64,000 nucleotides of DNA, from assembly GCF_900112935.1 (NCBI RefSeq), contig NZ_FONM01000003.1, positions 1 through 64,000 on the forward strand, given 5' to 3'. The notes below the pieces were generated by a model, which saw only the letters and a list, made by a program, of their open reading frames with translations, was not told where the DNA came from and made no database searches. Positions 1-59,960 of the stretch are shown in pieces. How positions within the stretch are numbered: position 1 is the first letter of the stretch; each line of letters opens with the position of its first letter. Source of the stretch: Trichococcus pasteurii (GTDB taxonomy: Bacteria > Bacillota > Bacilli > Lactobacillales > Aerococcaceae). The position numbers and the translations under genes were made by a program.

Positions 1-200
1 CGATAGTCCAACTTATCAACTTTTTCGATCAAGGGCAGTTCATCGATCTTTAGCTTCTGGTAATTTAAATTGTCCGGAGCAGTTAACTGAGGCATGCGGG
101 AGTTTCGCGTCAACAGGAGTACTAACTTCATCAACGCAAGAATAATCATTCGTTGACGCTTGATAATATCAACTAAATAGGTTAATAATAGAGGTAGCAA
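1..200 (-). CDS. Possible 5' end of a CDS running off the window
   Basis: An uninterrupted minus-strand frame of about 66 codons runs from a TTG at 200 to the window edge. An AAAGGAAG-like ribosome-binding site lies about 8 nt upstream of that TTG. The N-terminal residues are hydrophobic and basic (LLPLLLTYLVDIIKRQR), later turning charged (KLKIDELPLIEKVDKLDY). I do not recognise the family; the tone is that of some transposase N-termini, but no catalytic motif is visible. An ATG overlapping the same site stops after 8 codons. The frame could be fortuitous. The remaining sequence up to 382 shows no other gene. Confidence 0.3.
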   Translation of the reverse strand, partial: MLPLLLTYLVDIIKRQRMIILALMKLVLLLTRNSRMPQLTAPDNLNYQKLKIDELPLIEKVDKLDY

Positions 201-37626: not shown

Positions 37627-37670
37627 GGCCTATGGAAATAGGCAAATAACAAAGAAAACGAGGTGATAAA

Positions 37671-39755: not shown

Positions 39756-39766
39756 GCAATGAATGA

Positions 39767-39798: not shown

Positions 39799-39819
39799 AA
39801 ATAAAAGAGAGGTGAGAAA

Positions 39820-40633: not shown

Positions 40634-40647
40634 CAGGTTGCTTTTTT
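40624..40647 (+). terminator. Terminator of the terS transcript
   Basis: GCAGCC-TTAACA-GGTTGC then TTTTTT, overlapping the last codons of the 88-aa gene. Confidence 0.8.
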
Positions 40648-40654
40648 GCTCTTC

Positions 40655-41200: not shown

Positions 41201-41236
41201 GCAATAAAAAAGATCCCCTCAAAACTGAGGAGATCA
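41161..41236. terminator. Back-to-back terminators at the right end of element 1
   Basis: Plus strand: GGCTGATT / AATCAGTC then TATTTTTTT (41161-41200). Minus strand: GATC-CCTCA-AAAC-TGAGG-GATC (41212-41235) followed, reading leftward, by TTTTTTATT. The second would stop integrase-2 read-through from entering the RNA region antisense. Confidence 0.65.
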
Positions 41237-41238
41237 GA

Positions 41239-41277
41239 CCGCTGCCTACTAAAAAATGCACTCAGAAAAGCACTCGA
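41239..41277. repeat. Right-end arm-type repeats and companion motif, element 1
   Basis: CCGCTGCCTAC (41239-41249, inverted one-mismatch copy of the motif at 30629/32020), then CACTCAG (41259-41265) and CACTCGA (41271-41277), 12 bp apart. Confidence 0.6.
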
Positions 41278-41386
41278 AATGGTTTGAAGTGCTATCATTC
41301 CGTTTGAATAGGGTATTATTTCCCTTCTATTATATAAGCTTTTTATTTGATTGGGGTTGCTTCCGTTGAAACGCGGTACTTTAATA

Positions 41387-41400
41387 CCCATCGTCTCCAT
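41387..41400 (+). repeat. Attachment core, copy B (junction of elements 1 and 2)
   Basis: CCCATCGTCTCCAT, attR of element 1 and attL of element 2. The 22 bp after it equal those after copy A. Confidence 0.92.
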
Positions 41401-41416
41401 ACATCATTAATTAAAA

Positions 41417-41474
41417 AGCCTTGTAAACGTTGATAGGACGGCATTTCCTAAACGTTTATGAGGCTCTTTTTTTG
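41417..41474 (+). terminator. Left-end terminator of element 2
   Basis: AGCCTTGTAAACGT / ACGTTTATGAGGCT hairpin with seven T, the element 2 version of the tRNA terminator at 29358. It also faces the end of the integrase gene. Confidence 0.75.
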
Positions 41475-41476
41475 CA

Positions 41477-41497
41477 TTGAATACCAGATTGAATACC
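41477..41497. repeat. Arm-type repeats, left end of element 2
   Basis: TTGAATACC at 41477-41485 and 41489-41497, 12 bp apart. Copies recur at the right end (54547-54578) and, inverted, at 44531-44552. Confidence 0.65.
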
Positions 41498-41512
41498 ATA
41501 TCTGTTTTTAGC

Positions 41513-42670
41513 CTAAAAATTGACGTATCTCGCGAAGTTTTCGGCCGTCTTTTCTTTTGCCTTTTCAGTTACGTGGGCATAGATATTCATGGTTGTTTGA
41601 ATATCCGAGTGGCCGAGGCGGTCCTGCACTTCTTTTAATGAGGCGCCTGATTCGAAGAGTAGGCTGCAGTGAGTATGCCGGAAGCCGTGGACCGTTATTT
41701 TCTTCAGATCGTGCTTCTTGATAATACGGTGCAGACGAGTCAAAACATTACTAGGCTGCAAAAAGCCATTGCTGGTATTAGTGAAAATATACTGATCCGG
41801 CTGCATGGTATTGAAGCCCAGCTTCAGATAGTCTTTTGCCTGCGTTCTTCTCCAGGTCTGCAGCATGGATAGGGTGATTTCATCGAACGCGATCGTCCGG
41901 ACTCCACTTTTTGTTTTTGGTTCCTGGATGATAAGCGCGTTTTTTTGGCCTCTCGTGAGCGTTTTATTAACCGTGACCGTTTGCTCCTGGAAGTCGATAT
42001 CTTTCCAGGTGAGGGCTAAGACTTCGCCTACGCGCATCCCAGAGAAGGCGAGGACTCGGTAAATAGTGGTCCACTTATAAGACCAACCTTCTTCTTTGGC
42101 CAAACAGCTGAAAAACTCCTGCAGCTCTTCCTTGGTGAAGAACTTTTCTAGCTTTTCTCCGCTCACGTCCACTTTCTTTCTCGGCAAGATGACCTTCCGC
42201 ATTGGGTTACTCTTAATCAATTCCAGGGTGACAGCATAGTCCAGGACTTTCGAAGTATAATTCTTCAGCTGCGGGAACTTCGATAATTTCTCAGCCCAGG
42301 CATTAACCGTTTTTTGGCAGTAGGGGATTGTTATCTTGTCCAGGTAAAGGGCGCCGAACTTCTTCAGGATGTGATTATTAAACAGTTCCTGCGTCTTTGT
42401 ATAGGTGCTTTCCTTTACCGTGTTTCTGTATGCTGATTCGAACCATAACTCATAAAGTTCATTGAACGTGTATCGCTTTGTTTCCTTGAAGCCTTCTTCC
42501 TCTATCTCCAGTTTCAAGCGGGATAGGGCAAGCTGGGCTTCTTTTTTTGTCTGAAAACCGCGGCGGGTGGTCCGCTTCGGCTTTCCGGTTGCTGGATCTA
42601 CTCCAAGATAAGCATTGAACTGATAGGCGGCGCTGCCGTCTTTTTTTGTGTATTTCTTGATGACTGTCAT
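41513..42670 (-). CDS. int: Tyrosine-recombinase integrase of element 2
   Basis: A 385-aa integrase closely related to that of element 1. Catalytic motifs: GMRVGEVLALTW (R), VHGFRHTHCSLLFESG (H-x-x-R), LGHSDIQTTMNIYAHV (H/W and Tyr). The arm domain differs in the DNA-contact strand (KPKRTTRRGF here, KEINVTRQGF in element 1), in keeping with arm repeats TTGAATACC here and CACTCAG there. Shared catalytic and core-binding regions explain use of the same tRNA site. Leader motif at 42689. Confidence 0.95.
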   Translation of the reverse strand: MTVIKKYTKKDGSAAYQFNAYLGVDPATGKPKRTTRRGFQTKKEAQLALSRLKLEIEEEGFKETKRYTFNELYELWFESAYRNTVKESTYTKTQELFNNHILKKFGALYLDKITIPYCQKTVNAWAEKLSKFPQLKNYTSKVLDYAVTLELIKSNPMRKVILPRKKVDVSGEKLEKFFTKEELQEFFSCLAKEEGWSYKWTTIYRVLAFSGMRVGEVLALTWKDIDFQEQTVTVNKTLTRGQKNALIIQEPKTKSGVRTIAFDEITLSMLQTWRRTQAKDYLKLGFNTMQPDQYIFTNTSNGFLQPSNVLTRLHRIIKKHDLKKITVHGFRHTHCSLLFESGASLKEVQDRLGHSDIQTTMNIYAHVTEKAKEKTAENFARYVNF

Positions 42671-42688
42671 TTGTTTTTCCTCTTTCCA

Positions 42689-42704
42689 CCGCGGGCAACG
42701 GGGC
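42689..42704. repeat. Shared motif in integrase leader, element 2
   Basis: CCGCGGGCAACGGGGC; recurs as CCGCGGGCAAACGGGGC at 44510-44526 and, inverted with two differences, as GCCTCGTTACCCGC at 54528-54541. Same three locations as the motif of element 1. Confidence 0.6.
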
Positions 42705-42735
42705 TATAAGAGGCGCCTGGAGACCAGGCATTATA

Positions 42736-43371
42736 TTATTTTTGTTCTTGTAAATCCTTTACCTCAGCAATGAACTTTTCAATCAGTTGGATCCATCGCT
42801 CATACTCTTCTTTTTCGTCCTCGTGCAATAGCATGCCTTCTTTCAATCCGTTGATATGTTTTTCTAAGTCGTCGGTTAGGTAGACTGAGAACATACTCGG
42901 ATCATATAAAGCGAAGTCGTTAAAATAATTGGTGATTATTCTTTCAAGTTCAGATTCAAGCTCTTTGCCTACTCTGTTGTGCGTACTTTCAATATAGCTG
43001 AGTAGCATGTTAGATATTGATTGCAGTTCTTGGGGCGCTTCTGATGCCAGGTCTTTTAAAGACTTGGCTAAAAAAGCATTTTCTCCATTATCCTGGTATT
43101 CCTTGATGAGAGAACTTACTAATTCAAGATCCTTAACATTATGCACAGAGTAATTTGCAGCGGACATTAGCAGCGTGAAAATAGATTCATAACTATGTAC
43201 GGAGTTTTCCAGAGCCGCAGAAAGTTTTTTCACCAGATCTACACTAGGATTGTAGCGGTTGTTCTCAACGTCACTTAGATAAGTCCTAGAAACTCCGGCT
43301 GCTTTTGCAAGCCCTGCTTGTGTCATTTTAGCTTCTTTACGAAGCCTTTTTAAAACGTTTCCAAAATTCAA
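42736..43371 (-). CDS. CI-like repressor of element 2
   Basis: A 211-aa protein with an N-terminal Xre HTH (FGNVLKRLRKEAKMTQAGLAKAAGVSRTYLSDVENNRYNPSVDLVKKL) and a long helical C-terminus without a peptidase domain, like its element 1 counterpart. I choose TTG at 43371, 7 nt after GGAAGGGGG; an ATG at 43401 would place that site inside the gene. Divergent from the Cro-like gene. Confidence 0.85.
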   Translation of the reverse strand: MNFGNVLKRLRKEAKMTQAGLAKAAGVSRTYLSDVENNRYNPSVDLVKKLSAALENSVHSYESIFTLLMSAANYSVHNVKDLELVSSLIKEYQDNGENAFLAKSLKDLASEAPQELQSISNMLLSYIESTHNRVGKELESELERIITNYFNDFALYDPSMFSVYLTDDLEKHINGLKEGMLLHEDEKEEYERWIQLIEKFIAEVKDLQEQK

Positions 43372-43414
43372 ACATAGGCCCCCTTCCATTATATAAATCA
43401 ATCATAGAATATAA

Positions 43415-43468
43415 ATGACGGAAATACAAGTAATTCTTATTGACAATATGACGGAAATACCATACAAT
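43415..43468. promoter_or_regulatory. Switch region of element 2: promoter and operators
   Basis: ATGACGGAAATAC at 43415-43427 and 43448-43460 (33-bp period). Rightward promoter TTGACA (43440-43445), 17 bp, TACAAT (43463-43468); the second operator fills the spacer. A variant (ATGACGGAAAAAC) at 43688-43700 lies inside the Cro-like gene. Confidence 0.7.
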
Positions 43469-43500
43469 TAGACACATAAAAGGGCTAGGAGGTGTAAAAA

Positions 43501-43803
43501 ATGTCAGATATCGGAACAGTACTTAAAAATGAACGGAAAAAGCGTGGACTAACCCAACTTGAGGCATCTAAATTAGTGGGGATATCTCGCTCTTATCTCG
43601 CCGATATTGAGGCCAACAGGTACAACCCAGGAGGCAAACTTATGATGAAGCTAGATAAGCAATTCAATCTTTTTTATTTACTTGTCAATGACGGAAAAAC
43701 CTTGCAAAACGAAAGGCAGCCACCAGAAAATCGTTCGAAAGCAAAAGCCCGAAAGGGGAGTGATCCGCATGCTAAAACTGAAAAAGTATTACCTGGCGCA
43801 TGA
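43501..43803 (+). CDS. Cro-like HTH regulator of element 2
   Basis: A 100-aa Xre-family protein: IGTVLKNERKKRGLTQLEASKLVGISRSYLADIEANRYNPGGKLMMKL. The HTH recognition region (SRSYLADIEANRYNP) is very similar to that of its repressor partner (SRTYLSDVENNRYNP), so both should bind the same operators. The basic C-terminal tail overlaps the next gene by 35 bp. RBS AGGAGGTG. Confidence 0.88.
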   Translation: MSDIGTVLKNERKKRGLTQLEASKLVGISRSYLADIEANRYNPGGKLMMKLDKQFNLFYLLVNDGKTLQNERQPPENRSKAKARKGSDPHAKTEKVLPGA

Positions 43804-44203
43804 AGGCACCGGAGAGCCCGTTTTGGTTGGGTATAAGGTGAAGAACCTGGAAGAGCTGGAAGAACTCGGCTATCGCGTATCAAGATCGGCAGAAGAGGAT
43901 TTCCTCAAGACCCGGCGGCGCGGACTGGTGTACATCAGTAGGGGACAATACGATGCAGCTGAACCGGAAGCGGCCCTTTACAACAATAAAGGAATGCAGA
44001 TAGCAGTCGCGTATCGTATTAAGCCGGATTTAAGCGATACCAGGTATATAAAGGATTGCTATTCAATCGAGTTAGACGGCTACCAGGTAAAAGCGCTCCA
44101 GGCATACCTGGAAGAGACCTGGGAAGAAAGAAGCGCGCCGGACCAGCTGCCGCTTGAAACGCAGATAAGCCTGGCGGTCTACAATCTAATCGAAAATATT
44201 TAA
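43769..44203 (+). CDS. Hypothetical protein, element 2 regulatory region
   Basis: A 144-aa protein (MLKLKKYYLAHEGTGEPVLVGYKVKNLEELEELGYRVSRSAEEDF...), mixed alpha/beta. It starts at ATG 43769 after GAAAGGGGAG and overlaps the Cro-like gene by 35 bp. No counterpart in element 1. Its position in the switch could suit an antirepressor or regulatory helper, but there is no direct evidence. Confidence 0.65.
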   Translation: MLKLKKYYLAHEGTGEPVLVGYKVKNLEELEELGYRVSRSAEEDFLKTRRRGLVYISRGQYDAAEPEAALYNNKGMQIAVAYRIKPDLSDTRYIKDCYSIELDGYQVKALQAYLEETWEERSAPDQLPLETQISLAVYNLIENI

Positions 44204-44218
44204 GGGGGTGTATAGCAC

Positions 44219-44503
44219 ATGGCGACACTGAACATTGACAATATCGAGATAGGGGACCTTTTGCAGAAATCCCTGGAAGGTTCAGTAAAAGAAATGGTCC
44301 GCAAGGCCATCGATGAAGTTGCGGCTGATCCGCTACAGCGAAAAGATTACCTGAATAAACGCGAGGCGTGTGACTTCTTGGGAGTTTCCTTTACTACATT
44401 GCAGCGGCTTGAAGTTCTCGGCCTGCCGATTATCCATATCGAGGGCAAGCAACTAATCTCAAAAGAAACGCTAAAATCGTTCTTGAAAACTTTGGAAAAA
44501 TAA
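44219..44503 (+). CDS. Excisionase/AlpA-like HTH protein of element 2
   Basis: A 94-aa protein with an N-terminal helix (about 1-35) and HTH_17 domain YLNKREACDFLGVSFTTLQRLEVLGLPIIHIEGKQLISKETLKSFL. Same length and layout as 31737-32012. The companion motif and inverted arm repeats follow the stop codon at 44510-44552. RBS AAGGGGGTG. Confidence 0.8.
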   Translation: MATLNIDNIEIGDLLQKSLEGSVKEMVRKAIDEVAADPLQRKDYLNKREACDFLGVSFTTLQRLEVLGLPIIHIEGKQLISKETLKSFLKTLEK

Positions 44504-44509
44504 AAATAG

Positions 44510-44552
44510 CCGCGGGCAAACGGGGCCAAAGGTATTCAATGAAGGTATTCAA
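44510..44552. repeat. Internal arm-type repeat pair with companion motif, element 2
   Basis: CCGCGGGCAAACGGGGC (44510-44526), then GGTATTCAA at 44531-44539 and 44544-44552 (13 bp apart), the reverse complement of the end-type TTGAATACC repeats. Confidence 0.6.
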
Positions 44553-44661
44553 AAGCGAAAAAAGAGAGAAGTTTCGGCTAGAATCGGCGGCCTATAAGCG
44601 TTATCCGGTTTTGAGGTTGGAGACAGTGAGTATAAAACCCACCGAAAAGAGGTGAAGAATT

Positions 44662-44769
44662 ATGAATGATTTAGAGGCAGCCTTCACGGCTGGAATGATG
44701 CTCGCGTTCTTTACGTGGGGAGTTTGTAAGATCGTACTAAAAAATCTTCGGGAGGAGTGGAACCAATGA
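44662..44769 (+). CDS. 35-aa single-pass membrane microprotein, element 2
   Basis: MNDLEAAFTAGMMLAFFTW...REEWNQ, homologous to the 35-aa product at 32187-32294 with about two thirds identity. One hydrophobic helix (about 9-25). Same ribosome-binding site type and ATGA overlap with the next gene. Function unknown. Confidence 0.75.
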   Translation: MNDLEAAFTAGMMLAFFTWGVCKIVLKNLREEWNQ

Positions 44770-44972
44770 ACGCGAACGAAAGCGAAAATGAACTAACCCG
44801 CGTTGAGGTTGTTTTGCATAATTTCAACAGGGCCGCCATCGACACGTTTCTTCAAGCTTACGGCTTTGAAACGGCTGACGATGATTGGGGACGGAAAATA
44901 AAAGTAGTGTTGCTGATAATCGATGAGGTTCAGCAAGGTGTTCGGAATGAAGAAAAATGTGCAAAAAAATAG
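44766..44972 (+). CDS. Small hypothetical protein, element 2
   Basis: A 68-aa protein (MNANESENELTRVEVVLHNFNRAAIDTFLQAYGFETADDDWGRKIKVVLLIIDEVQQ..., ending EEKCAKK). It begins in the ATGA overlap with the microprotein, the arrangement of element 1. Function unknown; a GTG at 44757 is an alternative start. Confidence 0.65.
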   Translation: MNANESENELTRVEVVLHNFNRAAIDTFLQAYGFETADDDWGRKIKVVLLIIDEVQQGVRNEEKCAKK

Positions 44973-45077
44973 CCTTGTACCCATGAGCAGCGAACTCAGT
45001 ACAAGGCAACGAGGATATTTTAAGCTTTAGACGGCTTCTTTTATCCCTAATATTACAATACAAGGGAGCTAATTGCA

Positions 45078-45326
45078 ATGACAAAAAATAATTTACATAC
45101 AGTTGAGGGCCATAAGGCTGCTGCTGATGCGGTCAATAGAGAATCATTCATCATACTTTTTGGAAGAGCGCCTCAGGGCACAGAGCTGCAGGACTGGATC
45201 AGCGGACTGCGAGAAACTGCAGAGGCTGACATCGAGAGATCGTTTCCTGATAGACTAGTACAAATCAGAGAAGGCCAGTGGCGGGTGGAACGCGACCTAT
45301 GTGCATGGCAGGAAGGGGGTATCTGA
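45078..45326 (+). CDS. Hypothetical protein, element 2
   Basis: An 82-aa protein (MTKNNLHTVEGHKAAADAVNRESFIILFGRAPQGTELQDWISGLRETAEADIER...). RBS AAGGGAG. Unrecognised. Ends 1 bp before the next start. Confidence 0.6.
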   Translation: MTKNNLHTVEGHKAAADAVNRESFIILFGRAPQGTELQDWISGLRETAEADIERSFPDRLVQIREGQWRVERDLCAWQEGGI

Positions 45327-45327
45327 C

Positions 45328-45579
45328 ATGAGAGACCACAAATCACGTCTGAACTTCATCCCTACATTATTGGAGCAGGTGTTAGATAACACGGATCGGA
45401 TAGGTTCCCTGGTAGCTGATGCCGAGAGTGCTGAATCAATCGACTTGTTGAAACGCGAGACCGAAAAGCTGAGTGCCCGAAACGAGAACCTGCTGCACCT
45501 CATAGCGAACCTATTGGAAGAAGAACAACACAAGCACCCGAGAGCGGCGCCTAAGGCAGAGGGAATGCTCATATATTAA
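45328..45579 (+). CDS. Coiled-coil hypothetical protein, element 2
   Basis: An 83-aa protein with a coiled-coil-like middle (LLKRETEKLSARNENLLHLIANLLEEEQ). I use ATG 45328 after AGGAAGGGGG. Function unknown; it is the last gene before the replication protein. Confidence 0.6.
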   Translation: MRDHKSRLNFIPTLLEQVLDNTDRIGSLVADAESAESIDLLKRETEKLSARNENLLHLIANLLEEEQHKHPRAAPKAEGMLIY

Positions 45580-45616
45580 CCATAAAGTAAAGAAAGTGAG
45601 AAAGGAGGGTTATTGT

Positions 45617-48085
45617 TTGAACAAAGCTGATGAACAACAAGCGGCTTCACCGCCGCGCTTGAAGCATGACAAAGAAATAAATTTAGCAATGGCCAGCCGC
45701 AAAACGGCGACCGAATGGAAGAACAGGACAATGATCTGGAGTGAGTTCCTGCAGCGGCTATCTGAGCCGACCAGGACACAAGAAACGGCTGCAGAGTATA
45801 AAAGTATGCCCAAGTCTGAAAAGGACGCAGCCAAAGATGTTGGGGGCTATGTAGGAGGCTTCTTGAAAGGCGGGCGCCGAAAGGCCGATGCAGTGCAGTC
45901 CCGCAGCTTGCTAACACTGGATGCCGACCATCTGACTATGGACCTCTGGGAAAGCGTTCCGCTTCTGTTTGAACATGCGGCAGCGATATACAGCACTCAT
46001 AGCCATACACCTGAGAAGCCCCGGGAACGGCTGATTATCCCACTATCCAGACCAGTAACACCGGACGAGTACGAACCGATAGCACGGAAAGTGGCTGAGA
46101 TTTTTGGACTTAATCTCTTCGATGATACAACGTACCAGGCAAGCCGCCTTATGTTTTGGCCAAGCTGCCCGAGAGACGGCGAGTATATATTCGAGTACCA
46201 GGACGAAAATTTTCTAGATCCCGATACCATCCTTGCTAAATACGAGGACTGGACAGACATATCTTCCTGGCCGACCAGCGAGCGAGAGAATGCAGTAAAA
46301 GTTCATGAACGAAAGAAGGCGGGAGATCCTGCAGCGAAGCCGGGCATCATTGGTGCATTCTGCCGGGTGTACGACATAGCGACCGCGATCGAGACGTTCC
46401 TGCAGGACGTGTACGAGCCTACTAAACGAGCAGATCGATATTCCTTCATTGGTGGCAGCACCAGCGGCGGATTGGTCTTGTATGATAACCAGTTTGCTTA
46501 TTCGAATCACGCAACGGATCCGACAGGCGGCAAGCTGACTAACGCGTTTGACCTGGTCCGTATCCACCGCTTCGGCGATCAAGACGAAGGGGCAAAGCTG
46601 GGAACGCCCAGCACGCGCTTACCTTCATTCCTGGCTATGAATGAGTTTGTTGCTGCAGATAAGAACGTTTCTTTTGAATTGAAAAGGCAGGCTCTTGCCA
46701 GTGCCGACGAAGATTTTGCCGCGTCTCTGCAGGATGATACTGGAGCCCGCTGGATAGCGGATCTGCGGACAACTAAAGCGGGCAAAGTGATGAACAATAT
46801 TTACAATCTTACGTTAATCCTGGCGAATGATCCCGAGTTCAAAGGCTTGCTAGGCTTTAATGAATTTACCGGAACTATAGAGAAGGTACGAAAGCCTTCC
46901 TGGGAAACGGTTTTCCTGAAGGATTTCTCCGATCGTGATGCCTCAGAAATCCGAACTCGTGTAGATACCAGGTATGATTGCACGTTCTCCAGTAAAAACC
47001 TGGATGATGCGGTTGTAACTGAGGCCCGAAGGCAGGCTTTCAATCCAGTAAAGGATTACATCGAGAAAGCCGAGTGGGACCATATACCACGTATAGGCAA
47101 GTTGCTGATGGATTATTTCGGGGTTCCGGACGAGCCGCCCTATACAGCTGAAATAATGGAATTGTTCTTCGCTGGAGCAGTAAGCCGAATCTACAAGCCG
47201 GGGTGCAAGTTTGATTTTGTACTAACGCTGATCGGGACGCAGGGGATAGGAAAGAGTACGTTTTTCCGGAAGCTGGCGCCGGATTTCTTCACGGACTCAC
47301 TCACAAGCTTGGACAGCAAGGACGATATTCAAATCATTTCGGATAACTGGCTGATCGAACTTGGAGAGCTGGCTGCTGCAAAGCGTACTGATATTACGAA
47401 ACAGAAAAACTTCTTATCCAGGACCGAGGACGTGTATCGCAAGCCTTACGAGAAAAACAATATCCGCATGAAACGCCACTGCGTATTTGTGGCCACCACG
47501 AACGAATACAGACCACTGAAAGATGAGACAGGCGGCAGGCGCTGGCTATATGCCATATCCGATAAAGACAACCGAACTAAGTCAGTATTCGACGGCAGCC
47601 TGGAGGCGGTTATCGCTCAACTTTGGGCCGAGGCGGTGCATTTGTATAAGACCCGCTACAAATACGGTAACTGGCTGGACTTAACAGAAGAGGCCCAAAA
47701 AATCGCCAGAGAGAAGCAAAACGAGGCAAAAGCCGACGATCCCATGCGCGACGACATAGCTTTGTATTTGGAAATTCAAATACCTGAGGATTTCTATGAG
47801 TGGGGTGCAGGTGAGAAAAGCGACTACATCCAAAGCAGACTCCGCGGAGAAGAGGGATTCTATAAAAAGGAGTACGAAGAACTCGCGCCTCGGGAGAAAG
47901 TCACTTCCCGAGAGATTATGCAGGAGCTATTCAACTTCCAAGTCGGAAGTACTGATATGAGATCAGTGAGTGTGTCGAAAAAAATCGGCATGATAATGAA
48001 TAACTCGATGCCAGGATGGAAAAGTTCGACTGTCAGGATACCAGGATTCGAGAAACCGATACAGGGCTTTAAGAGGGTAAATTGA
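45617..48085 (+). CDS. VapE-type primase/SF3-like replication protein of element 2
   Basis: An 822-aa protein. The N-terminal part (about 30-250) contains RSLLTLDADH and SHTPEKPRERLIIPLSRPV, in keeping with an archaeo-eukaryotic-type primase domain. The C-terminal half is virulence-associated protein E: WDHIPRIGKLLMDYFG, Walker A LTLIGTQGIGKST (about 540), WLIELGELAAAKRTDITKQKNFLSRTEDVYRKPYEK, and CVFVATTNEYRPLKDETGGRRW. Such proteins replicate satellites and plasmid-like phage elements together with an adjacent origin. TTG start at 45617 behind AAAGGAGGG. The iteron region follows immediately. Confidence 0.88.
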   Translation: MNKADEQQAASPPRLKHDKEINLAMASRKTATEWKNRTMIWSEFLQRLSEPTRTQETAAEYKSMPKSEKDAAKDVGGYVGGFLKGGRRKADAVQSRSLLTLDADHLTMDLWESVPLLFEHAAAIYSTHSHTPEKPRERLIIPLSRPVTPDEYEPIARKVAEIFGLNLFDDTTYQASRLMFWPSCPRDGEYIFEYQDENFLDPDTILAKYEDWTDISSWPTSERENAVKVHERKKAGDPAAKPGIIGAFCRVYDIATAIETFLQDVYEPTKRADRYSFIGGSTSGGLVLYDNQFAYSNHATDPTGGKLTNAFDLVRIHRFGDQDEGAKLGTPSTRLPSFLAMNEFVAADKNVSFELKRQALASADEDFAASLQDDTGARWIADLRTTKAGKVMNNIYNLTLILANDPEFKGLLGFNEFTGTIEKVRKPSWETVFLKDFSDRDASEIRTRVDTRYDCTFSSKNLDDAVVTEARRQAFNPVKDYIEKAEWDHIPRIGKLLMDYFGVPDEPPYTAEIMELFFAGAVSRIYKPGCKFDFVLTLIGTQGIGKSTFFRKLAPDFFTDSLTSLDSKDDIQIISDNWLIELGELAAAKRTDITKQKNFLSRTEDVYRKPYEKNNIRMKRHCVFVATTNEYRPLKDETGGRRWLYAISDKDNRTKSVFDGSLEAVIAQLWAEAVHLYKTRYKYGNWLDLTEEAQKIAREKQNEAKADDPMRDDIALYLEIQIPEDFYEWGAGEKSDYIQSRLRGEEGFYKKEYEELAPREKVTSREIMQELFNFQVGSTDMRSVSVSKKIGMIMNNSMPGWKSSTVRIPGFEKPIQGFKRVN

Positions 48086-48372
48086 TTTGTAATATGTAAT
48101 TTCGATGTAATATAGGACGTTCTGAAAGCACGTAATATGTAATAAGAGTGTAATACGTCCTATATTACAAAATCGAAGCCTTAAAAAGCCGATGCAACAA
48201 CGTTTAACAAGCTATGTAATATGTAATATGTAATTTATATATAAAAGTATATTTAGATGATTAAAGGGTAATTAGGCTGTATATAGTACCTGTCGTCTCC
48301 TTAAATCAGTATTTTAACTTTTTTGGAAAGTTATATATTACATCCAAAATCAGGAATTAGAGAGGTGAGAAT
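48086..48372. other. Candidate replication origin of element 2
   Basis: Noncoding AT-rich region after the replication gene. GTAATATGTAAT occurs at 48089, 48132, 48216 and 48223 (the last two overlapping). A perfect 15-bp inverted repeat, TGTAATATAGGACGT (48106-48120) with ACGTCCTATATTACA (48155-48169), lies among them and extends imperfectly outward. An AT-rich stretch follows to 48260. Layout fits an iteron origin recognised by the VapE-type protein. Confidence 0.65.
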
Positions 48373-48675
48373 GTGAAACGAAAAAGACGGATTGAGGTTC
48401 TGGCAGAAGATCTGGGAGAAGCGTACAGCATTCAAATTATCGATGGGGTTGATTGTGTTTATCGTAAGTTAAATAAGTTCTGTGATGTCGAAATCTCAGG
48501 TGCCTTATCTAGAAAAAAGGTACCTGAAATGATGGTTTGCGTGTGGGATATCAGCCGAGGAGAGACGTATCGTTCCCGCAGCTTAGAGTACTTTTGGTTT
48601 GCTGGTATAGACGTTCTGAAGAAAGAATTACCCGGAATCATCGAGAAATATAAAGATTACAAGCCTGAAAATTAG
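48373..48675 (+). CDS. Hypothetical protein, element 2
   Basis: A 100-aa basic protein (MKRKRRIEVLAEDLGEAYSIQIIDGVDCVYRKLNKFCDVEISGAL...), predicted beta-rich N-terminus and helical C-terminus. GTG start after GAGAGGTGAG. Not recognised. Confidence 0.6.
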   Translation: MKRKRRIEVLAEDLGEAYSIQIIDGVDCVYRKLNKFCDVEISGALSRKKVPEMMVCVWDISRGETYRSRSLEYFWFAGIDVLKKELPGIIEKYKDYKPEN

Positions 48676-48690
48676 AGAGGGGAAACCGTG

Positions 48691-48942
48691 ATGAAAAAGA
48701 TGGAAGAATATGAAATATTAGACTGGGTATGCGTGGTAGACGAATCGATGTATGACAAAGTGGCCTGGTTCCGTCTGAATGGGGTAGATACGAAACTGAA
48801 AGAGATCCGCTTGTATCATGATCGGGTGCAGCTCCACTACCTGCCACCGAAGGATACTAAAGGATATCATTTCACGTATCCTATGCACAAAATCATTAAG
48901 TACAAGATCATGAATGTAGATACAGCTGAATTCTTTGAATAG
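48691..48942 (+). CDS. Hypothetical protein, element 2
   Basis: An 83-aa protein (MKKMEEYEILDWVCVVDESMYDKVAWFRLNGVDTKLKEIRLYHDRVQLHYLP...). Beta-rich, no known domain. RBS GAGAGGGG. 15 bp after the previous gene, likely one transcript. Confidence 0.6.
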   Translation: MKKMEEYEILDWVCVVDESMYDKVAWFRLNGVDTKLKEIRLYHDRVQLHYLPPKDTKGYHFTYPMHKIIKYKIMNVDTAEFFE

Positions 48943-48981
48943 TAGCGACCGATGCCGCTAAGAAGGGTGGTGGTGTTTTGA

Positions 48982-49521
48982 GTGTTAAATGTGGACATGA
49001 TCGAATATTATTTCTCTCTTCAATATAAACTGCCAAACGCGCGGTTGCGGGTATTGCAATACCGGGAAGAGTTTTACCGGAATCAAACGCTGCATAGTTA
49101 TTTCACATACTCGGAAGGTCGCTGGATGGTAAGAGGCTTCCGGCAGGATGTTCAGGTAGTTAATCTGTTGGATACACTGTTAGCCCTGGAGCGGTATATC
49201 GAGATACTGGAGTTTAAGCTGAAGCATTTCCGGCTTTTTCTCCAGGAGCTGCCACGGGAAGATAGGGTAATGCTGAATAAGAAATACTTCCATAAACGCG
49301 AACTACCGGACACTGAGAACCTAAGGAATGTAGAGAAGCTATGCTTCAGCGAAGTACAAGAAATCGAAGAGGCCGCTTGCTTCCGGTTTAAGTTTTACGA
49401 GATGCCTGACTTCCTGATAGAGGCAGCGGAAATTCTTGATTTGGAAGATGAAAACTTCACGGAATCCTTCAGCGTGAACTTCGCCGCCATGCTGGAACTG
49501 CTAGGAGTTGGTTCCGAATAG
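48982..49521 (+). CDS. Phage-type regulator with sigma-region-4-like segment, element 2 (first of pair)
   Basis: A 179-aa protein homologous to 34975-35481 in element 1: MLNVDMIEYYFSLQYKL, LEFKLKHFRLFLQELPREDRVMLNKKYF, and CFSEVQEIEEAACFRFKFYE align. The C-terminus FSVNFAAMLELL matches FTAHFEDMLKLL. Probably a transcription regulator of the ArpU/late-regulator kind. GTG start. Confidence 0.7.
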   Translation: MLNVDMIEYYFSLQYKLPNARLRVLQYREEFYRNQTLHSYFTYSEGRWMVRGFRQDVQVVNLLDTLLALERYIEILEFKLKHFRLFLQELPREDRVMLNKKYFHKRELPDTENLRNVEKLCFSEVQEIEEAACFRFKFYEMPDFLIEAAEILDLEDENFTESFSVNFAAMLELLGVGSE

Positions 49522-49532
49522 AACCCTGGCAA

Positions 49533-49904
49533 TTGGTCCTAAAAAAGTGGCCAAAATACCAAGCAAGACTAAGCAGCCTGAGCGAGTTGAACACACGGCG
49601 AGTGAAGAACCTATACCAGGCATTAAGCGCCATGAGTGAAGAAAACCGCCTGATTTTGGCGGAGAAATACTACACCCGAAATCAGATAAGCATCAGTGAT
49701 CTGCGAATGGCTCAGATCAAAAAGATGAAGCTGAAGGATTATCAGAAAATTCTGAGAGCGGCCCAGGCGGAATTTTGTACGCATTATAACCCGCTGGATA
49801 AGCTGCTTATTGAAGAGTATGAGAACAAGCGCAGGCAGGAACAGGAAAGAAGAATTAAAGCATTTGAGAAATGGCAGCAGAACTGGAAAAACAGCAGTTA
49901 CTGA
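49533..49904 (+). CDS. Sigma-region-4-like regulator, element 2 (second of pair)
   Basis: A 123-aa basic protein with ALSAMSEENRLILAEKYYTRNQISISDLRMAQIKKMKLKDYQKILRAAQAEF, aligned with the 117-aa protein of element 1. The C-terminus is a charged helix. The start is uncertain: TTG 49533 gives MVLKKWPKYQ, and the frame is open further upstream. Confidence 0.65.
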   Translation: MVLKKWPKYQARLSSLSELNTRRVKNLYQALSAMSEENRLILAEKYYTRNQISISDLRMAQIKKMKLKDYQKILRAAQAEFCTHYNPLDKLLIEEYENKRRQEQERRIKAFEKWQQNWKNSSY

Positions 49905-49977
49905 GGGTAGCGTACTAAATGAAGTCTGAAGTGAACAGGGTAAACCAAAAAACGATGAGACGGGAAGGTGGGTATAA

Positions 49978-50208
49978 ATGGACTACAGGACAAGGAAGAA
50001 GCTGGAGAGGCTAGAAGAAATCGCTGAGAGAGTGAAAGAGAATGCGTACATCGTTGATCTGATGGATGGGGGATATTCCGTGTTAAACGTGGTGAAGCAT
50101 AAGTATCTGGGCGAGATGAGCCCGAAAGCTTTCGAAGCCTGGATGGTTACGATAAAGCAGAAAGAGCCGAACAGCGTCATCATTATAGACGATATCCCAT
50201 GGGACTAG
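49978..50208 (+). CDS. Hypothetical protein, element 2
   Basis: A 76-aa protein (MDYRTRKKLERLEEIAERVKENAYIVDLMDGGYSVLNVVKHKYLGEMSPKAFEAW...). Helical N-terminus, then a beta hairpin. RBS GGAAGGTGG. Not recognised. Confidence 0.6.
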   Translation: MDYRTRKKLERLEEIAERVKENAYIVDLMDGGYSVLNVVKHKYLGEMSPKAFEAWMVTIKQKEPNSVIIIDDIPWD

Positions 50209-50236
50209 GGCGGTCGAAGCAGAAAGGAGAGGAGAT

Positions 50237-50455
50237 ATGAACGAAGATGAGAGCAATCAAAAGTTACTGAATCTGATTTGTAGCAATTTTACCGGGTTGA
50301 CCATGACTGAGGCCATGATCGGGACTGGGCTTGATTATCAGTCAGTGAAGGATGCCGTAGAAGGTTTGTGTGCAGCCGGCCATCCAATCGGAGTTGTAAA
50401 AGTGGGTCGATCGATATGCAGGCTTTACCCTTTGGAAGATGCAGGATCTTCCTGA
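50237..50455 (+). CDS. Small winged-helix-like protein, element 2
   Basis: A 72-aa protein (NQKLLNLICSNFTGLTMTEAMIGTGLDYQSVKDAVEGLCAAGHPIGVVKVGRSICRLYP) with the look of a winged helix: a helix-turn-helix followed by a GHPIGVVKVGR wing. Possibly DNA-binding; based only on pattern. RBS AGAAAGGAGAGG. Confidence 0.55.
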   Translation: MNEDESNQKLLNLICSNFTGLTMTEAMIGTGLDYQSVKDAVEGLCAAGHPIGVVKVGRSICRLYPLEDAGSS

Positions 50456-50499
50456 ATCGATACGAAAATGCACAAATTTGAACGTTTGGAGGTGATTTT

Positions 50500-50865
50500 T
50501 TGACAAAAACTAATGCTAAGCATGAAAAATTTATCCTGGCGTTAATGAGTACCAGCACGATAGAGGACGCAGCGAAAATGGCGAAAATTGCAAGAGGTAC
50601 CGCGTTTCAATATTTACGTGATCCCGAATTCAATGAAGCTTACCTGACCTTCAGAAGAGAAACCATGCAGCAAGTGACAGCTAACCTGCAGCGGGTCTCG
50701 CACAAAGCCCTAGCGACTTTGGAAGAGGTAATAGAAGATCAAGCGGCTCCGACTTCATCGCGCGTACAAGCTGCAAGAGCAGTGCTGGATAACGCCTATA
50801 AAGGTCTTGAATTAGACGACCTGATACAACGTCTGGCCAAAATAGAGGAAAGGTTAGGTTCATGA
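50500..50865 (+). CDS. HTH protein of the phBC6A51/small-terminase-like kind, element 2
   Basis: A 121-aa protein: KHEKFILALMSTSTIEDAAKMAKIARGTAFQYLRDPEFNEAYLTFRRETMQQVTANLQRVSHKALATLEEVI is the phBC6A51-like pattern seen in phages and satellites at the small-terminase position. It may be the packaging specificity factor of element 2, which lacks a canonical TerS. TTG start after TTTGGAGGTG. Overlaps the next gene by 4 bp. Confidence 0.7.
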   Translation: MTKTNAKHEKFILALMSTSTIEDAAKMAKIARGTAFQYLRDPEFNEAYLTFRRETMQQVTANLQRVSHKALATLEEVIEDQAAPTSSRVQAARAVLDNAYKGLELDDLIQRLAKIEERLGS

Positions 50866-51137
50866 TGAGAAAAGCGAGTGCAGACTCAATAAAACGGATC
50901 GCGCAGTTAGAAAAGCAGATCGGTAATAAAGGTGATACGGCAGAACTATTTCAGAAAGCTTTGTCCGAAGTTCTGCAGGAGGCGACAGATGAAGAATTAA
51001 GAACCGCCGCAGGATCCGGGAAGTTTGGGAAAGATCCTGCTCCTGACGAGCTGTTTGCCATGCACGAACTGTTTCGAAGTAGGGCAGAACGAAAAGTAAA
51101 CCAATACAGAGACGAAAAGGGGAAAAATCATGATTAA
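50862..51137 (+). CDS. Hypothetical protein, element 2 late unit
   Basis: A 91-aa helical protein (MMRKASADSIKRIAQLEKQIGNKGDTAELFQKALSEVLQEATDEELRTAAG...). Linked by 4-bp and 8-bp overlaps to its neighbours, so translated as a unit with the packaging-type HTH protein and the 299-aa protein. Not recognised. Confidence 0.65.
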   Translation: MMRKASADSIKRIAQLEKQIGNKGDTAELFQKALSEVLQEATDEELRTAAGSGKFGKDPAPDELFAMHELFRSRAERKVNQYRDEKGKNHD

Positions 51138-52029
51138 CCACGAAGAAGAAAAATTTCAAGCTGCATACAAAGAGAGCGTAATGGATTCCACGCAAGAGGT
51201 GCCACTTACCGAAGAAGAAGCTTACGCTAAAGAAAAGATTCTGGAGCATTACGATGACAAAGAAGAAGGTACGTTAGTATTCACGCAGGCAATGGCCGAA
51301 GCTGCAGCAGATGCCATCCTAAAGGCTGAATCTTATATATACAATACCAGAATTGAAAAGCATGAAAAAGTGGTCAACACTTTAGGCGAACAGGCCCAGG
51401 CACTATCCAATGAATTCAGCACAAAGAAAGAAGCCATCCTAAACCGTAATGAATATACGGACGTAGCGAAGGCTGAACGGCTGAACGATCTGTATGACGA
51501 GTACGAGAAGAAAATGAAAGCCATCATGGGTGAGCAATACACGGCAACGATGCAGCATCAGAAAGACCGCCGCGAAAAGGCGCAGCAAGCACTCGATGGC
51601 ATCGTGAAAAAAGCGAGCATCAACGATTTTGACGCGAAGGATATGACTTATATTACTTACATGTTGGATCATGGGAGCAATGACGAAATTCTAAGCATCC
51701 TGAAGGAGTATAAGTTCCACCCGCATCTGCTGAAAATGGTAAATGCCCGGGACAGGAAGAAACCGCTGCAGTATGACGCGAAAGGCCGCCCGATGGATAA
51801 CCGTTTGAGCATTAAGCACCCACTGCAGATGATTGCGGAGGAACAGCCTTATAGACCGAACACGAATACAATCAGCGTAGCCCTTGGCGACAGCCGACTA
51901 CAACGGACTTTGACAGATATGATCCCTACTGCAGGTATTCCGAAAAAAGATGCCTGGTCTTTCCAGAATTTAGAAGGGGCGCAGCGTGACAAAAATTTGC
52001 GATTGGATCCGTGGGGGATGCCGTACTGA
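51130..52029 (+). CDS. Helical late protein, element 2 (possible scaffold/structural modifier)
   Basis: A 299-aa protein: long helical and coiled-coil N-terminal two thirds (about 30-165), then NDFDAKDMTYITYMLDHGSNDEILSILKEYKFHPHLLKMVNARDRKK, and a C-terminal tail ending LRLDPWGMPY. The EYKFHPHLLKMV part recalls KYKNNYTMLKAI in the 193-aa protein of element 1. A particle-assembly role is possible from its position after the packaging gene but is not shown. Confidence 0.6.
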   Translation: MINHEEEKFQAAYKESVMDSTQEVPLTEEEAYAKEKILEHYDDKEEGTLVFTQAMAEAAADAILKAESYIYNTRIEKHEKVVNTLGEQAQALSNEFSTKKEAILNRNEYTDVAKAERLNDLYDEYEKKMKAIMGEQYTATMQHQKDRREKAQQALDGIVKKASINDFDAKDMTYITYMLDHGSNDEILSILKEYKFHPHLLKMVNARDRKKPLQYDAKGRPMDNRLSIKHPLQMIAEEQPYRPNTNTISVALGDSRLQRTLTDMIPTAGIPKKDAWSFQNLEGAQRDKNLRLDPWGMPY

Positions 52030-52054
52030 ATCCGAGCCGAAAGGATGCGAATGA

Positions 52055-52288
52055 ATGAGGATGAGTGAAAGAATCCGGAACCTGGAACAGAAAACGCATG
52101 TAGACGCACTGCCGGCCCTGATTATCGAGGTCTTGGAAGATGGAATGGTAGAAATCTATGGGGACAATGAAGGCGAGAAAGTCCGCATGACGGAAGCGGA
52201 ATACACTTCCTGGGCGAAACGTTATCAGAAGAAACGGGATCAGATGAATATTACCATCGAAATGGGTGAATGGGATTTAGAGGAATAA
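52055..52288 (+). CDS. Hypothetical protein, element 2
   Basis: A 77-aa acidic protein (MRMSERIRNLEQKTHVDALPALIIEVLEDGMVEIYGDNEGEKVRMTEAEYTSWAKRYQ...). RBS AAGGA. ATG 52061 is an alternative start. Unrecognised; the beta-strand-rich middle reads like a small sensor or capping fold, but this is weak. Confidence 0.55.
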   Translation: MRMSERIRNLEQKTHVDALPALIIEVLEDGMVEIYGDNEGEKVRMTEAEYTSWAKRYQKKRDQMNITIEMGEWDLEE

Positions 52289-52413
52289 TTGTCCGTTAGT
52301 TCGGAGGGTGGGTGGCAGGGAATACTGAGGCATAGTTTTTTGATTTACGGTTTTCCTCCTTTTCGGGCCGTCGTCCAAGGCAGCGGCGGTCTGATAATTT
52401 TAAAATGCATATT

Positions 52414-52449
52414 CAGGCTATCGGATAATCCGGTAGCCTTCTTTTTGAT
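52414..52449 (+). terminator. Terminator after the late unit of element 2
   Basis: AGGCTATCGGA / TCCGGTAGCCT stem then TTCTTTTTG. The 210 bp between 52288 and 52501 otherwise hold no convincing gene. Confidence 0.75.
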
Positions 52450-52500
52450 TTATAATAGGCTCCAGAACAGCTACAAATTAAATAGCGGAGATGTGATCCT

Positions 52501-52830
52501 ATGGCCCAAAAATTACAGTTAACTGTGGAGATACCTGATGAATATGTGCTGATAACGAAAGTCGAATATGAAAAGCTAAAAAAGAATGCAGATCGGGGGA
52601 ACAGCTGGGAAACGATAGCCTGGTTCAAGCAGCAGGTAGGGATCAAGCATCCGGACACGCTGAAAACGAGGATTCTTTATCCGTACCGGAGCGAACTCGA
52701 GAAGTTTGTGAAGTACCCGGAAAAGAAGGGAAGTCCCTGGAGATTTCACAAGGGCGCTACCCTGGACTGGCTCGAAAACAATTTCGAAAGGCTCATCCGA
52801 GGAAACAACACGCTCCAGGGTACAAAATAA
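52501..52830 (+). CDS. DUF771 family phage protein
   Basis: A 109-aa protein matching DUF771: LQLTVEIPDEYVLITKVEYEKLKKNADRG, WETIAWFKQQVGIKHPDTLKTRILYPYRSELEKF and GSPWRFHKGATLDWLENNFERLI. DUF771 proteins are found beside regulators in Firmicute prophages and satellites; many look like excisionase-type HTH proteins. RBS AGCGGAGATGTG. Confidence 0.8.
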   Translation: MAQKLQLTVEIPDEYVLITKVEYEKLKKNADRGNSWETIAWFKQQVGIKHPDTLKTRILYPYRSELEKFVKYPEKKGSPWRFHKGATLDWLENNFERLIRGNNTLQGTK

Positions 52831-53011
52831 GGACGTTTGGGAGCGGGTCAATCTTTAAGACCGGGTAACAGATCAACAAATTTTTTCGTATTTATAACAG
52901 AGAAAGAGGTGCCTTTATCGGATGTTTTTTTAATTTAACGGGAAGGAAGACTTGAAAACGAGCCTCCGAGATAGCCGATTCATTAAGGGGGCTTATTAAA
53001 TGAATGCCCTG

Positions 53012-53064
53012 TTGCAAATTTTTAAAAGTATGATAAAATGATAGTAGTTTACCAATGTGGTAAA
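53012..53064 (+). promoter_or_regulatory. Promoter and operator of the HigBA-like module
   Basis: -35 TTGCAA (53012-53017), 16 bp, -10 TAAAAT (53034-53039). Directly downstream is the perfect inverted repeat TTTACCA-ATG-TGGTAAA (53048-53064), a likely autoregulatory operator for the HTH antitoxin. Between 52831 and 53011 I see only AT-rich sequence. Confidence 0.65.
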
Positions 53065-53086
53065 TCCTTTTTTGAGGGGTGCATTG

Positions 53087-53434
53087 ATGGAAATAGGATA
53101 CGATAAGCCGAAGTTAGAAAAATACTTCGATAATTATACAGAAATGCAGAAAAAGATTGGGCCGCCATTAACAAAGTGTGTTAAATTGAGGATCAATCAA
53201 TTAGGTGCTGCTACTACATTTCAAGAATATTTAGATATTGGGTTAGGAAAACCCCATGATTTATCAGGAGTAGATCACGGATGTTATGGAATTAGTTTAA
53301 CTGCTAATTATAGATTAGTTGTTTATCCTGACGCTGATGATTTAAGTTCGGAGTCCTTATCGAATTGCAAAAAGGTTTTTATAAAAGGAGTGATAGATTA
53401 TCATGGCTCACACCGTTCCGTTCTTATCCCCTGA
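53087..53434 (+). CDS. HigB-like (RelE-fold) toxin
   Basis: A 115-aa protein: CVKLRINQLGAATTFQEYLDIGLGKPHDLSGVDHGCYGISLTANYRLVVYPD is the plasmid-maintenance-killer/HigB pattern (ribosome-dependent mRNA cleavage). The N-terminus (DKPKLEKYFDNYTEM) also fits. I use ATG 53087 after GAGGGG. The antitoxin gene overlaps by 32 bp in another frame. Confidence 0.82.
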   Translation: MEIGYDKPKLEKYFDNYTEMQKKIGPPLTKCVKLRINQLGAATTFQEYLDIGLGKPHDLSGVDHGCYGISLTANYRLVVYPDADDLSSESLSNCKKVFIKGVIDYHGSHRSVLIP

Positions 53435-54491
53435 ATTGATTATACATCCCGGAGAAACGCTTGAAGAATTACTACAGGACAGAGAAATGACACAAAAAGA
53501 GTTAGCCAGCAGGACTGGCACCTCTGAGAAACATGTAAGTCAGATTATTAACGGGAGAAAGAATATCTCTAATGCATTTGCTAAAAAGTTAGAGTACGCT
53601 TTGGGTGTAAATGCTCGTTTTTGGGTCAATCTACAATCAAACTACGACCAAGAACTTATTGAGTATCAAGAAGTTAACGGTATTTCTCAAGAAGAAATCG
53701 ACATTCTCAAACCGTTGAAAGACATACTTAATTATTTTAAAGAGATCAGCTTGGTCCCTAATACGTCTAATAAACCAGAGTTAGTGCTGAATTTGAGAAG
53801 GTTATTAGGTGTAAGTGATTTGGCGGTTATCCCCTCGATTGAATCAAATGTTGCTTATCGTGCACAAGTCTCTGATAAGATTGATCCTTTCGTTCTTTTC
53901 GCATGGGAAAAATTATGCGAAGTTCAGACAAATGCTGCGAAGGTTGAAAGGCCTTTAGACTTAGAGGTTTTAAAATTACGTATTCCTGATATGAAGAGTA
54001 TCATGGATGAGGATCCAAACGAAATCATCAAAAAGTTAACTGCTATTTTCGATGAGTGCGGAATATCCTTTAAAGTCGTGCGCAACTTTAAAGGAGCACC
54101 TGTGCAAGGGTTTATTAAAAAGACACATGACGGCAAGCTCTTATTGGGAATGACTATTAGGCAGCACTTCGCAGACATATTCTGGTTTACTCTTTTTCAT
54201 GAAATAGGACATATCTTAAACGGGGATATCAAAAACAAATTTATAGATTTTGATAACTATGAATCGGATGTGGAGAGAAAAGCGGATTATTTCGCTAGAA
54301 ATACCTTGATACCAGATTCGTTATTCGAAGAGTTTTGCTCAAAAAAAGACCTTTCCGAGGCTAGTATAAAAGATTTTTCTGCTGAATGTGGAGTACCCTC
54401 TTTTATACTTGTAGGGAGATTACAAAAGGAAGGCCATCTCGATTGGAATATGTCTCGTCTTAAACCTAGGTATGTTTGGGCTAATCATTAG
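53403..54491 (+). CDS. HigA-type HTH antitoxin fused to an ImmA/IrrE metallopeptidase domain
   Basis: A 362-aa protein. Residues 1-100 are HigA/VapI-like: IHPGETLEELLQDREMTQKELASRTGTSEKHVSQIINGRKNIS. Residues about 200-330 form an ImmA/IrrE zinc peptidase domain with HEIGH at 266-270 and a downstream acidic segment (YESDVERKADYFARNTLIP). HTH-ImmA fusions are known as antitoxins and as regulators cleaving phage-type repressors. Here it could both neutralise the toxin and sense phage or damage signals (inference). Confidence 0.85.
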   Translation: MAHTVPFLSPELIIHPGETLEELLQDREMTQKELASRTGTSEKHVSQIINGRKNISNAFAKKLEYALGVNARFWVNLQSNYDQELIEYQEVNGISQEEIDILKPLKDILNYFKEISLVPNTSNKPELVLNLRRLLGVSDLAVIPSIESNVAYRAQVSDKIDPFVLFAWEKLCEVQTNAAKVERPLDLEVLKLRIPDMKSIMDEDPNEIIKKLTAIFDECGISFKVVRNFKGAPVQGFIKKTHDGKLLLGMTIRQHFADIFWFTLFHEIGHILNGDIKNKFIDFDNYESDVERKADYFARNTLIPDSLFEEFCSKKDLSEASIKDFSAECGVPSFILVGRLQKEGHLDWNMSRLKPRYVWANH

Positions 54492-54527
54492 TTGGAAATT
54501 AGACTAAAAAAAAGAGACTATAAAATA

Positions 54528-54578
54528 GCCTCGTTACCCGCTTATTTTGAATACTAATTGAATACGTGATTGAATACC
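54528..54578. repeat. Right-end arm-type repeats and companion motif, element 2
   Basis: GCCTCGTTACCCGC (54528-54541, inverted relative of the 42689 motif), then TTGAATAC at 54547, 54558 and 54570. The stretch 54492-54699 contains no gene. Confidence 0.6.
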
Positions 54579-54685
54579 AAATAGAATAACGCTATGGAAT
54601 CGCATTTAATGATAAAGGAATTACTTCTATAGTATACGCTATTTCACGTAACCTTTTAAAACGTCACAAATTCGGAAACGTGGTA

Positions 54686-54699
54686 CCCATCGTCTCCAT
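54686..54699 (+). repeat. Attachment core, copy C (attR of element 2)
   Basis: CCCATCGTCTCCAT. The sequence beyond differs from copies A and B and marks the return to chromosome. Confidence 0.9.
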
Positions 54700-54876: not shown

Positions 54877-55095
54877 ATGATGAGAAAAACAAAATATTAT
54901 GTAACGACGAGGACGAATCGGAAAAATTTCCTTTTGAAATACGGTGACTGGATGTTTAAGTATGTTCCGGAGAGCAAAACCTGGGAAGCATCCGATTATT
55001 GGTACGAAGAAATAATCATGAACGCTTCTGCAGATTTTGAGGAGATAACCGAGGAGCGCGCGAAAAAGATAATCGCGGACGACGGTCTCTTTTAA
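54877..55095 (+). CDS. Hypothetical protein beside the attachment site
   Basis: A 72-aa protein (MMRKTKYYVTTRTNRKNFLLKYGDWMFKYVPESKTWEASDYWYEEII...). Basic N-terminus, acidic C-terminus. RBS AGAAGGAAGAG 6 nt before the first of two adjacent ATGs. Not recognised. It lies outside the third att copy and so is probably chromosomal, unless it is the remnant of an older element. Confidence 0.6.
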   Translation: MMRKTKYYVTTRTNRKNFLLKYGDWMFKYVPESKTWEASDYWYEEIIMNASADFEEITEERAKKIIADDGLF

Positions 55096-59774: not shown

Positions 59775-59806
59775 AGCATACAATAATGTCATACGATCAT
59801 ACAATA

Positions 59807-59960
59807 ATGGAAGAGGCTGCGAACATCAAGAGTAAAATGCCCGTTTGAAAGGGGTGTTCGCCGAAATACAGCGTTTGCTGTGTTGGGGTCAGGGTTAAGA
59901 ATCCTGGCACTGTCAGAACGATTTGCCCAAAATCGTTTGTGGAGTACTTTCGGTATTGCG
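59807..59960 (+). promoter_or_regulatory. Lysine riboswitch (L-box)
   Basis: The conserved core is readable in order: GAGGCTGCGAACATCAAGAG, TA, then GAAAGG...TTCGCCGAA, the GCTG...TTGGGGTC hairpin region, the ACTGTCA box with a long pairing arm, and the closing GGAGTAC. P1 forms from GGAAG and CTTTC. A terminator hairpin follows at 59976. Lysine binding should end transcription before the ABC transporter genes. Confidence 0.93.

Follow-up and report, generated by a model that had tools for sequence, protein, structure and literature searches.

Modules of the HigBA kind have a toxin-first gene order and a palindromic operator, and in the CapHP, ImmAR and IrrE-DdrO systems an M78 peptidase works with an HTH repressor, the peptidase and the repressor being separate proteins. 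Operons in which RelE-family genes lie beside Xre-COG2856 (HTH-Zn-peptidase) fusions have been reported by Makarova et al. (2009, PMC2701414). The NetFlax network places ImmA-type antitoxins at a hub, and its authors suggest HTH cleavage for Rosmer-like antitoxins and describe RosmerTA systems with ImmA-type antitoxins that act against phage (PMC10440598). The closest characterised homologue of the present locus, judged by sequence, is PD-lambda-2 of E. coli, described as an abortive-infection defence in which the B protein is toxic alone when overexpressed, A rescues, and defence needs a third gene, C (Vassallo et al. 2022, PMC9519451).

The locus examined here, A-B, lies near the right end of a mobile element in the window, which is the whole 64,000-nucleotide stretch of Trichococcus pasteurii DNA that was analysed. 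It is a solid further example of a known module rather than a new system; in literature other than subscription journals and preprints, nothing more specific to its architecture than PD-lambda-2, Makarova et al. 2009 and NetFlax was found. We consider it probable that A and B form an autoregulated type II toxin-antitoxin module of the HigBA kind, made up of these two genes, with a protease-bearing antitoxin and with A as the toxin. The features of the locus are as follows.

53012-53039, forward strand: promoter-like -35/-10 pair, TTGCAA-16-TAAAAT, from a consensus scan
53048-53064, no strand assigned: operator-like perfect inverted repeat, TTTACCA-ATG-TGGTAAA, with a similar motif before A in relatives
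53087-53434, forward strand: gene A, 115-aa RelE/HigB-fold protein with an ATG start, presumed ribosome-dependent mRNA endonuclease toxin
53403-54491, forward strand: gene B, 362-aa protein with a HigA-family HTH, a helical middle and an M78 metallopeptidase, presumed antitoxin and autorepressor
53439-53657, forward strand: HigA-type HTH domain, B residues 13-85, from TIGR02607 (residues 14-84) and VIA Z to GraA
54198-54275, forward strand: predicted zinc site H266-E267-x-x-H270 ... E291, B residues 266-291, from Pfam M78 and conservation

Gene content and predicted folds

Protein A on its own is too divergent to reach the Pfam cut-off for HigB (PF05015, 15.1 bits against a cut-off of 27); it is also under the cut-off for YoeB, and PADLOC returned no match for it. 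At the level of the family, 26 of 51 members match PF05015 at E<=0.01, and a profile search with the A family gave HigB at 1.2e-3 and YoeB at 1.7e-5. The family phrog_3066, a toxin of a toxin-antitoxin system, is matched by A itself (1.3e-5) and by 49 of the 51 aligned members at E<=1e-3. A structure model of A built on these 51 aligned sequences (pLDDT 94) had solved P. vulgaris HigB as its best match (VIA Z 10.9, rmsd 2.4, 93 residues) and YoeB as its next best (VIA Z 10.1), which count as tied since VIA Z rows within 1 are so treated; Foldseek gave HigB at 2.4e-3 and a YoeB/ParE toxin at 5.8e-4. The sequence-only reading had called this small protein HigB-like, a description borne out by the family profile and by the predicted fold, which is of the HigB/YoeB type. 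In the structural alignment A is covered over 1..106 and the aligned range stops at HigB residue 92, which puts A Tyr105 and His106 on HigB Tyr91 and His92, the residues that we take to be catalytic in HigB; titles of PDB entries name both positions as mutated (Y91A and delta-H92 variants). Among the 51 A sequences, Y105, H106 and R76 are each conserved in 50, and D104 in 47.

The reading frame of A overlaps that of B by 32 nt. Protein B exceeds the Pfam cut-offs for both HTH_3 (6.8e-10) and Peptidase_M78 (1e-7, residues 261-332), and the NCBIfam cut-off for HigA (TIGR02607, 59.5 bits against 47.7), a family matched by all 47 aligned B sequences at E<=1e-4. The open reading frames, Pfam and NCBIfam thus agree with the earlier description of an overlapping 362-aa partner with an HTH and a metallopeptidase (HEIGH at residues 266-270), and the two cut-offs for TIGR02607 and Peptidase_M78 uphold its assignment as a HigA antitoxin type fused to an ImmA/IrrE protease. 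In the predicted model of B (pLDDT 89), the HigA-family antitoxin GraA aligns with residues 7-105 at VIA Z 14.4, further HigA proteins score VIA Z 13-14, and Foldseek gave CapP (5.1e-4) and IrrE (5.6e-3), both with the same type of peptidase. The zinc-site residues H266, E267 and H270 are conserved in 47/47 aligned sequences and E291 in 46/47, and HExxH is kept in all 93 B proteins of the related loci. The middle region (residues ~106-205) has no recognised domain in Pfam, and its sequence matches nothing in the PDB below E 0.4; it could serve as a sensor.

The palindrome lies behind the promoter-like pair and ends 22 nt 5' of the A start codon. The 120 nt upstream of A were scanned in 83 regions, the window included. 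The longest inverted repeats 5' of A in relatives share a core, TTACC...GGTAA or TTAACC...GGTTAA, and a similar palindrome occurs in a similar place in 66 of the 83 regions, a count that is descriptive because the pattern was written after the repeats of the relatives had been viewed; the pattern occurs in 44 of 8300 dinucleotide shuffles. There is good evidence at this level that the operator motif has been kept across a long divergence, and the predicted operator would most simply be bound by the HTH of B. A promoter with a perfect operator had been proposed from the window: the operator holds (66/83 against 44/8300), and the promoter pair is present yet hardly enriched, as the region holds 8 promoter-like matches and shuffles hold 6.3 on average (sd 3.0).

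Comparison with described systems

The A-B locus has the same architecture as the operons of Makarova et al. (2009), a RelE gene adjoining an HTH-Zn-peptidase fusion; that paper treats a general class without assaying function, whereas a single locus is described here, with modelled folds, an operator motif and its position. It shares with HigBA of P. vulgaris and with GraTA the folds of toxin and antitoxin, and with HigBA also the toxin-first order and a palindromic operator-like motif, but the HigBA and GraTA antitoxin chains that were matched are ~100 aa, to which B adds the helical region and the M78 peptidase. The B model likewise matches the CapP and IrrE folds of the CapHP and IrrE-DdrO group to which ImmAR also belongs, but B joins the peptidase and the HTH in one chain. 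RosmerTA (RmrT/RmrA) and the NetFlax systems resemble A-B in pairing a toxin with an antitoxin composed of an HTH and an ImmA-type protease; they are linked to phage defence. The RmrT characterised in PMC10440598 is, however, a membrane-depolarising protein and not HigB-like. RmrA models match B in part (best 3.5e-11, residues 209-308), and at E<=1e-10 RmrA is matched by 2/47 B members, against 47/47 for PD-Lambda-2_B. These matches being weaker and partial, B was not assigned to RmrA.

The likeness to PD-lambda-2 extends to the gene order, a HigB-like gene followed by a HigA HTH-peptidase fusion, and residues 18-344 of the 362 in B align with 62-377 of the 402 in PD-Lambda-2_B at 9e-28, a model matched by all 47 aligned B sequences. 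The two differ in that A lies outside the PD-Lambda-2_A model, which matched none of 51 A-family members (P0001 and 50 other members) at E<=0.1, and in that the A-B locus is without gene C, for which no match was found in the T. pasteurii genome. For PD-Lambda-2_A, a search with PDLC03981 matched none of 14 A-B genomes and did match two control genomes. The C model is able to detect its target, as it matches 11 of 398 genomes of the phylum; none of these 11 is among the 50 B-positive genomes, and as about 1.4 would be expected by chance, the zero overlap means only that C is not linked to B in this sample. Since A fails the PD-Lambda-2_A model and C is absent and unlinked, the locus was not filed under PD-lambda-2, and membership in PD-lambda-2 proper was ruled out on A and C.

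Distribution and linkage of A and B

With B as the query, matches at E<=1e-20 were found in 50 of the 398 genomes of the phylum; relatives of B are encoded on 208 stretches of genome_contigs, from which the best 80 were kept. Some relatives lie on plasmids, and 13 were found in viral contigs of IMG/VR. Direct searches with A gave no phage record at E<=1e-5 and two plasmid records at E<=0.01. Directly 5' of B there is an A relative in 40 of 42 loci of one set, which includes the window and in which one of the misses falls at a contig edge, and in 87 of 93 in a second set of related loci; the two sets share part of their members. The overlap between the genes is usually short and fixed, with the offset of the window in 44 of 87 pairs. 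The idea that A is an unrelated orphan ORF was ruled out by this linkage and by the fold. Across 56 loci, A co-diverges with each domain of B (r 0.73-0.77) and the partial correlation peaks at the HTH (0.38); such co-divergence also follows from the shared descent of adjoining genes. No third gene is conserved 3' of A-B, the largest downstream cluster covering 4 of 93 loci.

Intact B without a usable A was found with B as the query in five of the 93 loci (L087, L132, L135, L136 and L137), with remnants of A left in L087, L135 and L136; in a sixth (L139) both genes are broken. In L132 and L137, where no A is detectable 5', the intact B-like genes are possibly solitary antitoxins or regulators. 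With A as the query, 41 places were found in 37 of the 398 genomes, and the five that lack an obvious adjoining B were each inspected. One sits at a contig edge (G423:C220), one has both genes decayed (G269), one has B masked by N (G259) and one, with neither gene, is a probable false match (G374:C127). In the fifth (G364), B is cut inside the HTH by an IS3-like insertion and the adjoining A is still open; a second A-B pair lies ~25 kb away, with the two A proteins identical at 110/113 residues (L206 and L052 are the loci of these two pairs). As proof of polarity the asymmetry between orphans of A and B was rejected as too weak: the count of A losses is small (5/93), and little weight was given to it because the searches with A and with B differ in ascertainment, a B query favouring intact B.

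Position in a tandem mobile element

The module is bounded on the right by an attachment site, and the following features define the element that carries it.

41388-41400, no strand assigned: left/middle att core, a recurrence of CCATCGTCTCCAT, at the junction of the A-B element with the left element
41513-42670, reverse strand: integrase of the A-B element (phrog_1, 3.7e-82)
54687-54699, no strand assigned: attR core CCATCGTCTCCAT, a repeat of the tRNA-Ala 3' end, at the right end of the A-B element

A tRNA-Ala(GGC) gene (29268-29340) carries the core CCATCGTCTCCAT at its 3' end, and further copies begin at 41388 and 54687. This indicates two tandem elements, ~29341-41400 and 41401-54699, each with its own integrase. 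In five genomes of the same genus (G001, G003, G005, G006 and G007) the site is uninterrupted and tRNA-Ala continues directly into the right-flank DNA, and two others (G004 and G011) have other DNA at the tRNA-Ala site. No further operon lies between A-B and attR, which is 195 nt 3' of B; the placement of the module at the element end, proposed from the window, is confirmed by the cores and the five uninterrupted sites. Also encoded on the right element are a primase/helicase (phrog_256, 1.8e-279), an HTH protein resembling a repressor and a protein with a weak match to a small terminase (1.4e-7). Capsid and tail genes were absent from the part of its ORFs that was scanned, and the element is likely a satellite.

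Repeats of ATTGAATAC at 41476-41501 and 54557-54594, close to either end of the right element, are possible arm-type sites of the integrase. The scanned ORFs of the left element include an integrase/repressor/DnaD/DnaC/small-terminase set, and a 694-aa tail tape-measure-like gene lies at 37671-39755 (phrog_5493, 1.6e-64). An IMG/VR provirus contig (L001, 24215 long), which probably starts near the tRNA, is 100% identical over 48087-53434. Its end coincides with the A stop codon, which leaves B and attR outside the predicted provirus. Just right of attR, a conserved 72-aa ORF (54877-55095; phrog_3514, 2.3e-10) is found that also lies by the same att site in G004, G006 and G011, and further right is a lysine riboswitch (59803-59957; RF00168, 88.7 bits).

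Proposed mechanism and biological role

The assignment of A as toxin and B as antitoxin is based on the conserved active site of A, the HigA domain and the operator motif, and also on the occasional loci in which B persists with no usable A, as expected of an antitoxin. If HigB-like in action, A would cut mRNA on the ribosome, and the N-terminal HigA domain of B would bind both A and the operator, thereby silencing the toxin and repressing the promoter. The likeliest role of the peptidase, to judge from ImmA/ImmR, IrrE/DdrO and CapP/CapH, would be to cut its own chain within the HigA part. Upon a signal, which may be infection or excision of the element, the M78 zinc peptidase would make this cut, whereby A would be freed and the promoter opened.

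Two roles are compatible with this HigBA reading. As phage-defence cargo, infection would activate the B peptidase and A would stop the infected cell, a role to which we give a somewhat less than even chance; defence and protease-triggered release are both plausible. PD-lambda-2 and the RosmerTA systems provide described precedents, the pair sits at the element end by attR with a GC content of 36.7% against 45.4% in the rest of its element, and the 13 relatives in viral contigs point the same way. Against it, the C gene that PD-lambda-2 needs is absent from the genome, no downstream gene is conserved among the 93 loci, and C-positive and B-positive genomes do not coincide (0 of 11). A simple addiction role, in which the module would keep the element stable and the peptidase would serve ordinary regulation, appears rather unlikely: the integrase and att sites and the mobile setting of some relatives (plasmids, viral contigs) speak for it, but many relatives lie on large chromosomal contigs, whose mobile context was outside the comparison, and a peptidase motif kept in 47/47 aligned sequences would be superfluous for simple addiction.

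The PD-lambda-2 overexpression assay stands against A as the toxin, and would fit a reversed polarity in which B does the harm, as a peptidase or repressor acting without control, and is inhibited by A. The sequence-only reading, which took the small protein for the toxin, did not name PD-lambda-2, whose published polarity is the opposite. Near full-length homology of B to PD-Lambda-2_B and the presence of HExxH in every B protein also fit such an arrangement, which we nevertheless hold to be quite improbable, as A keeps the HigB active-site residues that an inhibitor would not need, intact B survives without usable A in the five loci, and A is unmatched by the PADLOC PD-Lambda-2_A model; an overexpressed DNA-binding peptidase may, moreover, do harm without being the native toxin. 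That the pair is a decayed or inactive remnant is highly improbable, for the weak scores of A alone against curated families are set against two open frames with the catalytic positions and the operator motif kept.

Under the preferred HigBA reading, we tentatively propose that one protein would act as antitoxin, autorepressor and its own inactivating protease, so that a signal frees a HigB ribonuclease and a third component is not needed. If true, A-B would be a widespread relative of PD-lambda-2 that works without C and has the polarity reversed, serving defence or addiction. PD-lambda-2 poses a puzzle in that toxicity came from the fusion that looks like an antitoxin, and a search outside subscription journals and preprints found no paper that explains what its peptidase does. 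A relative that consists of two genes, lacks C and has both active sites intact offers a simpler test case, one that would reveal which component is the toxin, whether the peptidase cuts the HTH domain of its own chain, and whether defence depends on C.
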